22,483 bases of DNA from a virus. Where the stretch lies: the IMG/VR virus record IMGVR_UViG_3300032282_001195, positions 1 through 22,483 of that record. One strand, 5' to 3'. Within the stretch, counting starts at the first letter, position 1. Every line of letters starts with the position of its first letter. The notes under the pieces were generated by a model. It was not told the origin of the DNA, did not search any database, and saw nothing but the letters and a program-made list of their open reading frames with translations. Positions 20,279-22,433 of the stretch are shown piece after piece. The position numbers were made by a program, and so were the translations under genes.

Positions 20279-21280
20279 TTAATAGATTTTACCGTTAAAT
20301 ATTTTTTTGTTTTCTACTTTATGTTTTCCATTTTTAATATGGACTAGGGCATATCCGTGGTTATGTTCATTGAGTTCCATATAGCCTGGTTCTAACTCAC
20401 ATAAGCAACCGGTAGAGTGAGTCATTATAGTGGTCCCATCATATATCTTAGCTAAGTGATCCTTAGTTCTATGGAAGTGTCCACATAAGGTGTCTCTTTT
20501 AAATCTCATGAATAAAGTTCTAGCTGGATCAACACCCCCGGCACCTTTCATTTTGTCACCATGCTCTACAAGTAAGTTACCCATATAGCATTTAGATGAG
20601 TGAGGTATGTAATGTACACCTATCTCTGCAACCTTAAGTAGGATGTCTAGATGGAATTCTTTCATGTCAAGTAACTCAGGTGCTTTAACTCTTAGGTATC
20701 TTTCTAACCTAATCTCATGATTACCAGGTACATAGTATACTTGAGCTTTAGGAAACCTGGTCTTTAATAGTTTAAAGAAGTTCTGACCCATCTCTAAAGA
20801 CATGGCAACATCCATAACACTAGGATCCTTTTCATGGAAGCTTAAAGAATAGAAGTCCAACATGTCCCCATTAATATAGAATGCATCAACATCTTCTTTA
20901 AGACAATCATCTAGTACAGCTTTAAGAGCATCATTATCCTGGTAGGGAAAGTGAATATCAGATATTACTGCTACTTTCTTTAGAGAGGTAGGTAAGTTCC
21001 AAGTAACTTTAGCTTTAGTAGATGATAATGGTAATTCCCATTTATTCTCAGTAGGAGTATTAATAGGTTTAATGGTTGACTTATCTTTTAAATGTTTACG
21101 GTTGCTATCTCCAGCATGTCCTCTATAGTATTTAATCTTACCATAAGCTTCTTCTTTATTTTTAAAGAGTTTGGGTCTTTTTAAATAAGCTAATGTAGCT
21201 AATGTCCTGTCCCCATGATCAGGAAACTTTAATATTAACTCTTTAATATATACTGCTGATACTGAGGTTGGTCTAGCCAT
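20279..21280 (-). CDS. Calcineurin-like metallophosphoesterase
   Basis: A 333-residue protein. The complete two-metal phosphoesterase motif set is present: VISDIHFPY (Asp108, His110), YINGDMLDF (GDxxD at 138-142), PGNHE (186-189), VEHGD (His240) and CGHFHRTKDH (GHxH at 267-270). Residues 1-~95 are a separate basic region (MARPTSVSAVYIKELILKFP, then RTLATLAYLKRPKLFKNKEE) that could be a small helix-turn-helix or DNA-binding addition. Possible substrates are nucleic acid ends or cyclic nucleotides. The sequence does not decide. As the first leftward gene it would be transcribed from the 21309-21325 region. Confidence 0.9.
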   Translation of the reverse strand: MARPTSVSAVYIKELILKFPDHGDRTLATLAYLKRPKLFKNKEEAYGKIKYYRGHAGDSNRKHLKDKSTIKPINTPTENKWELPLSSTKAKVTWNLPTSLKKVAVISDIHFPYQDNDALKAVLDDCLKEDVDAFYINGDMLDFYSLSFHEKDPSVMDVAMSLEMGQNFFKLLKTRFPKAQVYYVPGNHEIRLERYLRVKAPELLDMKEFHLDILLKVAEIGVHYIPHSSKCYMGNLLVEHGDKMKGAGGVDPARTLFMRFKRDTLCGHFHRTKDHLAKIYDGTTIMTHSTGCLCELEPGYMELNEHNHGYALVHIKNGKHKVENKKIFNGKIY

Positions 21281-21308
21281 GAGTTTTATATATGTTGGTT
21301 ATACTACT

Positions 21309-21325
21309 AATATACAAAATTTTAC
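21309..21325 (-). promoter_or_regulatory. Predicted leftward promoter element before the phosphoesterase gene
   Basis: The minus strand reads TAAAATTTTGTATATT. It keeps the TTTGYRTAWW core of the other long leaders, and its ten-base core (21309-21318) is identical to 17059-17068. The TAnnTTTG spacing is not exact here, so support comes from the shared core and position before the first leftward gene. Confidence 0.4.
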
Positions 21326-21365
21326 TATACTAAACAACACCCCCCTACATTAAGTTTATATTATA

Positions 21366-21487
21366 TACCCCCCATGTGATTTAAAATATGGTCTATGTAC
21401 TAGTGGGTATTATAAAAATGTTTTATGTGTTAGAACATAGTGGGTCCATAATATCAAAACCCCGGCTCAACTCCAGCTTGGGGGGTA
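21366..21487. repeat. Inverted repeat TACCCCCCA / TGGGGGGTA
   Basis: Perfect 9-base arms at 21366-21374 and 21479-21487, 104 bases apart, in otherwise AT-rich sequence. The right arm runs straight into the palindrome GGGGTACCCC. A third C-run (ACCCCCC) lies just left at about 21340. This may be long-range pairing of an RNA, or G-run DNA elements in a control region. Confidence 0.5.
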
Positions 21488-21719
21488 CCCCGGGTTAGTA
21501 CCAGGCCAGAGCCCAAATCCAATAGGAATATTGAAAGCATTCTTTTCCTACTGGGATATGTTATCTCTATGGTTGACAATGCTCCAGCCCTCACACGCTT
21601 GCTCTTCACACAGGCTGACACACATGTCTAGCAAGCCTTGCTTCCCTTCACACTATCCTACACACCTGTGTGTTATATACTATGTATAAAGGGGTTTATT
21701 ATTTCTTTCTTTATAGAAA

Positions 21720-22001
21720 CTCTGTACTACTATTAGTAAGGTGATCGGGCTTGTAGCAGACGTACTTACCATCACAGGAATTGTCCTGTAAAGAATAACA
21801 TTATGCTCACTATCGCTGTTTTAAAGAACAGTCTAGAGTAATGTTATTTGATGTACCATCTAATGAGCAGTTGTAATAAATGGCTTACAGCAAAGCAACC
21901 AACTACTTTAATACCTGATCAGTATTAAGCTAAGAGAGTGTTGGTCTAGACTTCCAATATTACAATTGAAAACAATGGACTAATAATCCATTGTTTTTTT
22001 T
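21720..22001 (+). ncRNA. Candidate structured non-coding RNA with pseudoknots
   Basis: No gene is present, yet perfect complementary segments follow one another. P1: GTAAG 21736-40 / CTTAC 21765-69, crossing GTGAT 21741-45 / ATCAC 21771-75. P2: hairpin ACAGGA-attg-TCCTGT 21774-89. P3: AATAACATTA 21794-803 / TAATGTTATT 21839-48, crossing TGCTCA 21804-09 / TGAGCA 21864-69, with CTGTT/AACAG inside. P4: GTTGTAATA 21870-78 / TATTACAAT 21958-66, enclosing ACCAAC 21898-903 / GTTGGT 21940-45, which in turn encloses TTAATAC 21908-14 / GTATTAA 21922-28. It ends in a strong plus-strand terminator. P1 and P3 each show crossing order, i.e. pseudoknots or alternate folds. The 5' end is not defined, and no family is recognised. 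Confidence 0.6.
21969..22001 (+). terminator. Intrinsic terminator of the candidate RNA
   Basis: AAAACAATGGA and TCCATTGTTTT form an 11-pair perfect stem (21969-21979 / 21987-21997) with loop CTAATAA. The right arm merges into a run of eight T ending at 22001. The T-run lies on the plus strand only, so it ends a rightward transcript. No rightward protein gene lies upstream of it, which implies that the transcript is non-coding. Confidence 0.88.
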
Positions 22002-22064
22002 CTTTCTTTAGTAACTCTTTACTTGTATTGATATATTTAGTACTAACCCTTTAAATTAAAAAAA

Positions 22065-22202
22065 ATGAATAGTTATTGGATTACACTTGTGCACAACGGT
22101 GCACTTAAGCTTGCTCAGATAGTTATCTACAAGAGCAAAACAGTTACACGTGTTTATGATAATCCGTGTGACCTTACTGAGTTTACAATTATAGGGGAGT
22201 AA
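22065..22202 (+). CDS. 45-residue protein, first rightward gene
   Basis: ATG at 22065, preceded by eight A, to TAA at 22202. It encodes MNSYWITLVHNGALKLAQIV and then VYDNPCDLTEF. The A-rich leader and strand-like pattern support it as real. It shares the [VI][YF]DNP motif followed by Phe with the next gene (IFDNPYSAVRF), so the two may be diverged relatives. Function unknown. First genes after a divergent control region are often early host-takeover proteins in phages, which is inference here. A weak TATATTTA box lies at 22032-22039. Confidence 0.6.
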   Translation: MNSYWITLVHNGALKLAQIVIYKSKTVTRVYDNPCDLTEFTIIGE

Positions 22203-22238: not shown

Positions 22239-22433
22239 ATGAAAACACTTCCAAGAGCATCCCTAAAACATTGTGTGCTTGTTTACCAACTTATTGATAA
22301 TCAATTAGTTGTTGTAAAGACAAGCATATTTGATAACCCTTATAGTGCTGTAAGGTTTGCTAATGAATTAACTGAACGTGGGTATTATGCTATACCAAAA
22401 ACTAAAGTAATTATGGAACAACCATTAGCATAA
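22239..22433 (+). CDS. 64-residue protein, second rightward gene
   Basis: Starts MKTLPRASLKHCVLVYQLID and includes TSIFDNPYSAVRFANELTER, then GYYAIPKTKVIMEQ. Strand-strand-helix-strand order is likely. Small size and position after the 45-residue gene, with a hairpin directly after the stop, suggest a short rightward transcript of two genes. It has no signal peptide and no catalytic motif. Its function is not known to me. Confidence 0.7.
   Translation: MKTLPRASLKHCVLVYQLIDNQLVVVKTSIFDNPYSAVRFANELTERGYYAIPKTKVIMEQPLA

Follow-up and report, generated by a model that had tools for sequence, protein, structure and literature searches.

GOLLD (RF02032) and ROOL are large structured RNAs of unknown function carried by phages and prophages, in many cases close to tRNA genes; ROOL is 659 nt long and many GOLLD members exceed 800 nt (PMC12286853). 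The family described here, an RNA absent from Rfam 15 and common to many uncultured crAss-like phages, is likewise a large structured phage RNA, but it has no sequence or model match to either, measures 226–390 nt, folds differently, and carries a hypervariable, exchangeable arm. RAGATH motifs and phage self-cleaving ribozymes (hammerhead, twister, pistol; theta, PMC10879173) share its intergenic position in phages and its combination of a junction with a pseudoknot, but the family matches no Rfam model. The RAGATH-18 / TnpB guide RNA (PMC11061315) is also a structured, pseudoknotted scaffold adjoining variable sequence, whereas the variable part of this family is a closed arm within helix P3, with no 3′ guide. 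Both a TnpB guide RNA and a retron or other RT-associated RNA were rejected as identities, as the TnpB domain (PF07282) and the reverse transcriptase domain (PF00078) were absent from 26 genomes. Freshwater-1 RNA (RF02979) is found in the same phage regions (loci L129, L150, and L166), but it has a separate place in the locus and a different, 62-nt model. The HDV-like fold has a strand order that differs from the family's. A literature search that took in few subscription papers returned no description of the family, which may have been reported earlier elsewhere.

The window and its noncoding region

The window, the whole stretch analysed here, is a 22,483-base virus record and represents a fragment of a crAss-like phage. 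Its leftward structural block encodes the major head protein, portal, and large terminase (PHROG), and tblastn relatives of the portal come largely from crAss-like phages, every one at <60% identity. No tRNA or tmRNA was found in the window. The features relevant to this study are listed below, with helices named as in the family.

20279–21280, minus strand: metallophosphoesterase, last gene of the structural block
21281–22064 (784 bases): noncoding divergent region between the structural block (leftward) and a small-gene block (rightward), flanked by diverging genes
21699–21713 and 21996–22010, plus strand: 15-nt direct repeat, TTATTTCTTTCTTTA and TTTTTTCTTTCTTTA, bounding the window RNA
21794–21848, plus strand: hairpin P0, AATAACATTA/TAATGTTATT, directly 5′ of the family core
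21804–21809, plus strand: TGCTCA, possible displaced 5′ strand of P2 that could pair with TGAGCA (from sequence only)
21849–21859, plus strand: counterpart of the P1 5′ strand, TGATGTACCAT, 10.5 bits
21864–21869, plus strand: TGAGCA, 3′ strand of P2 (family: GUGAG/UGAG), leading into P3
21868–21878, plus strand: 5′ strand of the family helix P3, CAGTTGTAATA
21879–21957, plus strand: variable arm within P3, an exchangeable module in relatives
21958–21968, plus strand: 3′ strand of P3, TATTACAATTG, followed by A 21969
21968–22001, plus strand: intrinsic terminator of 11–12 bp with loop CTAATAA and eight T
22065–22201, rightward: small ORF, read by eye
22239–22433, rightward: small ORF

The original prediction, made from the sequence of the window, placed a structured RNA in a gene-free stretch at 21720–22001, and we indeed found no convincing ORF in 21281–22064. 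The folding energy of the region is −69.9 kcal/mol (z −2.77), as good a value being reached in 2 of 200 dinucleotide shuffles, and the region contains nine complementary words of length at least 8, those of the terminator included, vs. 1.1 in shuffles. The arms of P0 (21794–21803 / 21839–21848) form the perfect 10-bp pair that had been described, and the terminator is likewise as described, with GAAAACAATGGA (21968–21979) facing TCCATTGTTTTT (21987–21998) in 11–12 pairs and eight T at 21994–22001. The 9-base arms 21870–21878 / 21958–21966 also pair, but through eight Watson-Crick pairs and one G-U rather than perfectly, and they extend to an 11-bp helix (21868–21878 / 21958–21968). This helix is P3, which relatives maintain through compensatory changes, and the presence of a structured RNA at the site is supported. 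The 5′ domain (21715–21848) yielded no relative; 21715–21850 taken by itself folds only slightly above chance (z −1.39), and an exact 40-mer from its supposed pseudoknot region was absent from IMG/VR.

Two pseudoknots had been named. Their segments are present (GTAAG 21736–21740 / CTTAC 21765–21769 with GTGAT 21741–21745 / ATCAC 21771–21775, and TGCTCA 21804–21809 / TGAGCA 21864–21869), but crossing perfect 5-mer pairs number 62 where 58 are expected, and 110 of 300 shuffles are as high. Crossings at this chance level leave both pseudoknots without support from the letters themselves, and the pseudoknot that covaries in the family is another one, between the P2 loop and a 3′ tail, that is missing from the window copy. 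The statement that no known family could be recognised agrees with our Rfam 15 scans of the window, strict and lax, which gave no match; the suggested likeness to ROOL and GOLLD holds only for the kind of RNA, with neither model matching in the window. BLAST of the region against isolate phages returned no match.

Elsewhere between the divergent blocks, 21440–21640 consists of a noncoding, G+C-richer stretch and then runs rich in pyrimidines and CACA. The folding of 21440–21570 is no better than chance, and a promoter or an origin may lie here.

Architecture and covariation of the family

Starting from the head protein, 80 close relatives were obtained, and 50 of their records were searched with the window RNA. 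Only short matches resulted, several of them on the query stretch TGAGCAGTTGTAAT; these shared their strand relative to the head gene and lay upstream of it at similar distances. Scans of IMG/VR with the TGAGCAGTTGTAAT core gave 72 and >120 stretches, and one with a separate conserved motif gave 68, some not genuine; 173 distinct elements from IMG/VR were kept after removal of duplicates. Because they were collected partly by exact patterns, P3 conservation is inflated in part of the set. Family members had no BLAST match among isolate phages, and the core pattern was not found in GTDB genomes. Synteny was unhelpful when followed through the metallophosphoesterase, whose relatives carry different upstream genes, and the 64-aa ORF downstream of the window RNA had no relative in 38 records.

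At the core of the family is a three-way junction of P1 (UGCAC/GUGCA), P2 (CUCAC/GUGAG), and P3 (CAGUUGUAAU/AUUACAACUG, capped by the variable arm), with a pseudoknot between the P2 loop UCCC and a GGGR tail 3′ of P1. The short form lacks extra domains and runs UAAUGCACCA(y)-CUCAC-UUCCCAAGG-GUGAG-CAGUUGUAAU-[arm]-AUUACAACUG-A-GUGCA-GA-GGGR. Long forms (226–390 nt, median 283) contain within P2 the series GUGG-AUAUAAAGACUU-CUUA-[var]-UAAG-AUGUGAAA-CCAC, in which AUAUAAAGACUU/AUGUGAAA is a conserved internal loop, plus a CUGAUUA-[var]-UAAUCAG hairpin. A third form has a short-looped P2, and its tail extends P1 (CCCUUUGCAC/GUGCAGAGGG) rather than pairing with the P2 loop. The motif of the P1 5′ strand is TAATGyACCAy (TAATGTACCAT in L180, L188, and L258), and in many members, as read by eye, a hairpin directly precedes this strand.

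There is strong evidence that the core is kept by compensating mutations. The 30 long forms are 96.1% paired, with double-sided change in 21 of 32 pairs and 60 compensatory cells vs. 11.7 ± 2.9 in shuffles, which ignore relatedness; against a control that retains relatedness, in which columns were slid by 1 to 3, the covariation score is 0.237 vs. 0.026–0.069. For the 38 short and third forms, pairing is 94.7% and double-sided cells number 21 vs. 5.7 shuffled; the third-form P2 is poorly aligned in alignment A1. Double-sided changes affect 8 of the 10 P3 pairs in relatives, and covarying variants of P1, P2, and the pseudoknot include UGUAC/GUACA, CUCCA/UGGAG, UCCA/UGGA, and UCAC/GUGG. Directly upstream of the element in L150, L172, L188, and L249, a hairpin of the type GCGGGG...stem-GAUAUAAUGCGAAGUGAAAC-stem was seen by eye; it resembles the long form's conserved internal loop and, in L150 and L249, is without an Rfam match.

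Relation of the window RNA to the family

The window contains the P3 helix followed by A (21868–21878 / 21958–21968, A 21969) and, ahead of the P2/P3 strand, the P1 motif UAAUGyACCA in the form TGATGTACCAT at 21849–21859. Between the P1 and P3 strands there is only CUAAUGAG. Absent from the window are the P1 3′ strand (GUGCA/GUACA), in whose place AAACA offers at most 3 of 5 pairs; a P2 hairpin with a UCCC loop pairing a 3′ GGGR, or the alternative extended P1; and the GAGGG pseudoknot strand expected after P3, which the terminator follows directly. The RNA lies on the strand opposite to the capsid gene, 18.8 kb upstream of it, compared to 9–40 kb in relatives. A joint score for three motifs (P1 strand, P2/P3 strand, 3′ arm) reached 44.4 bits at 21849/21863/21959, and the best of 400 second-order Markov windows, both strands scanned, reached 29.0 (Gumbel p 4e-5).

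The window copy escapes both family covariance models. R1 misses it because the 3′ strand of P1 and the P2 hairpin are missing, and R2 also missed the first copy in G016 (~150 nt), so it may fail on the long arm of the window. These failures are what would be expected if the match were a coincidence and the window RNA an unrelated structured RNA, or nothing, and by our own estimate a 16-nt exact match in ~3 Mb is expected ~0.5 times by chance. Discovery of the motif with the window as query partly predetermined the 5′ arm of the match, but had no bearing on the P1 strand or the 3′ arm. Coincidence is made very improbable by the ordered occurrence of the three motifs (window-wide p ~4e-5) in a noncoding region, on a strand, and at a distance that are all as expected, and by P3 strands that pair. 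By its likeness to what is observed in the relatives, we are highly confident that 21849–21968 is a diverged, outlying member of the family, to which the hairpin 21794–21848 and the terminator to 22001 probably belong.

From its sequence, the window copy may be either an eroded short form or a variant that would use UGCUCA, in the P0 loop, as the P2 5′ strand. A window-like displaced P2 (TGCTCA...TGAGCAGTTGTAA) was sought and set aside: the 18 stretches recovered comprise one ordinary short form and others that look like chance, and no second copy resembling the window's arrangement was found. The arm of the window has a weak match to that of L212 (E 0.007), arm exchange itself being demonstrated only in relatives.

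Genomic position, exchangeable arm, and possible function

Model R1 located the element in 9 of 26 capsid relatives, where it occupies the strand opposite to the capsid gene, ~20–26 kb upstream of it. A further set of records having both element and capsid showed opposite strands throughout and distances of 9–40 kb, as calculated from coordinates with near-complete records treated as circular. Among 39 further records, which had been chosen as element sources, 34 gave an R1 match and 26 a capsid protein match, the latter in many cases at only 22–29% identity over the matched part, which indicates that the RNA spans distant groups. No conserved neighbour gene was identified: the neighbours are small proteins, and the largest family adjoins 17 of 173 elements. 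Each genome has one or two copies, always in the same block and on the same strand, with tandem copies in several genomes. A terminator lies within 90 nt of the element in only 7 of 171 cases, so most elements appear to sit within a longer transcript, which counts against a stand-alone RNA as the general rule.

The P3 arm is swapped between phages in the manner of a cassette. Its length in relatives, as parsed, is 29–252 nt, and on average it has a more stable fold than its mononucleotide shuffles (mean z −1.35). In 49 pairs of elements with a similar arm, both flanks differ in 43; conversely, five pairs with both flanks in common carry different arms. One arm is common to a third form (L214), a short form (L230), and a long form (L232), and both arm and core have been exchanged at the same site in L138, L159, and L256. 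The same arm on different chassis and different arms at the same site would fit a modular phage RNA with a conserved folded chassis, three interchangeable architectures, and a hypervariable arm swapped as a cassette. We put this forward as a possible but rather doubtful reading; if true, it would be a type of RNA system so far undescribed, and the arm would perhaps be a target-binding or decoy module under host pressure. By eye, the arms of L286 and L279 contain T-arm-like sequences (GTTCGATTC and GGTTCAAATCC).

For function we tentatively favour a trans-acting scaffold over its rivals, at somewhat less than an even chance. The element would be transcribed along with the small-gene block, opposite to the structural genes, and the RNA would act in trans: its core would bind an invariant partner, either a protein or a second copy of the RNA, and its exchangeable arm would serve as the variable business end. 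The window copy, with its own terminator, would be a stand-alone RNA of about 200–290 nt. The family assignment and this mechanism taken jointly are the best explanation we can offer, and we judge the pair equally likely to be right or wrong. If right, annotation pipelines have overlooked a structured RNA that is widespread in environmental uncultured crAss-like phages, one that combines strong covariation, a pseudoknot, and an arm recombining as a unit. Probing, knock-out, and pull-down experiments would then have a well-defined target, and the question of a common function among ornate phage RNAs a test case.

Two other proposals, each of which we consider unlikely, give the RNA a role on its own transcript. 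An undescribed self-cleaving ribozyme might cut a polycistronic transcript between small genes, with the window copy degenerate or differently folded; the element does lie between genes and on their strand, its small junction-plus-pseudoknot core has alternative architectures, and Rfam ribozyme matches occur near elements in relatives (L194, L235, L148, and L118). Yet the element itself matches no Rfam ribozyme model in the 44 loci scanned, the short form has no counterpart to the conserved internal loop in the long form, and the unpaired nucleotides conserved across the three architectures are few, mainly one A between P3 and P1. Established small ribozymes have, to our knowledge, more conserved unpaired nucleotides than this. 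Regulation, stabilisation, or processing of early-block mRNA by a cis-acting intercistronic element, with no action in trans, would suit the usual lack of an own terminator and the downstream ORF found on the element's strand in 144 of 153 cases (median gap 197 nt), and in L237, L263, and L285 the GAGGGG tail has two possible pairings, one in the pseudoknot and one in an intrinsic terminator downstream of the core. Neighbour genes vary, however, and the window copy, which carries its own terminator, occupies the first position at the divergence point. A terminator overlapping the pseudoknot strand was rejected as a general switch, since it occurs in only 5 of 171 elements.

It is still less probable, to the point of being a minor concern, that the element is a selfish intergenic one spreading between phages and sites, with an RNA structure that serves its propagation. 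Such spread would account for the lack of related flanks, the occurrence of tandem copies in several genomes, the exchange of arm and core at one site, and the 15-nt direct repeat bounding the window RNA. Against it, copies are limited to one or two per genome in a constant block and strand, and no TnpB or reverse transcriptase is associated (the search covered these two domains, not other transposases). Flanking direct repeats, at 10 of 156 elements vs. 1 in the control, are not a general trait of the relatives.

Other RNAs were seen near the elements. A Pistol match lies above cut-off in L194 (2664–2725) and below it in L118 (2814–2873), and matches to twister-P1 in L235 (855–923) and to the RAGATH-1 hammerhead in L148 (2710–2795) are also below cut-off. 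In L176, a GOLLD-like match (1538–1937; 100.3 bits, E 2.5e-25; gathering score 150 bits) lies ~1.3 kb from the element. Element loci also contain tRNAs, and Rfam tRNA matches of 109–123 nt that ARAGORN did not call (L137, 3697–3805; L167, 940–1062; L239, 4783–4891) are possibly tRNAs with inserts.
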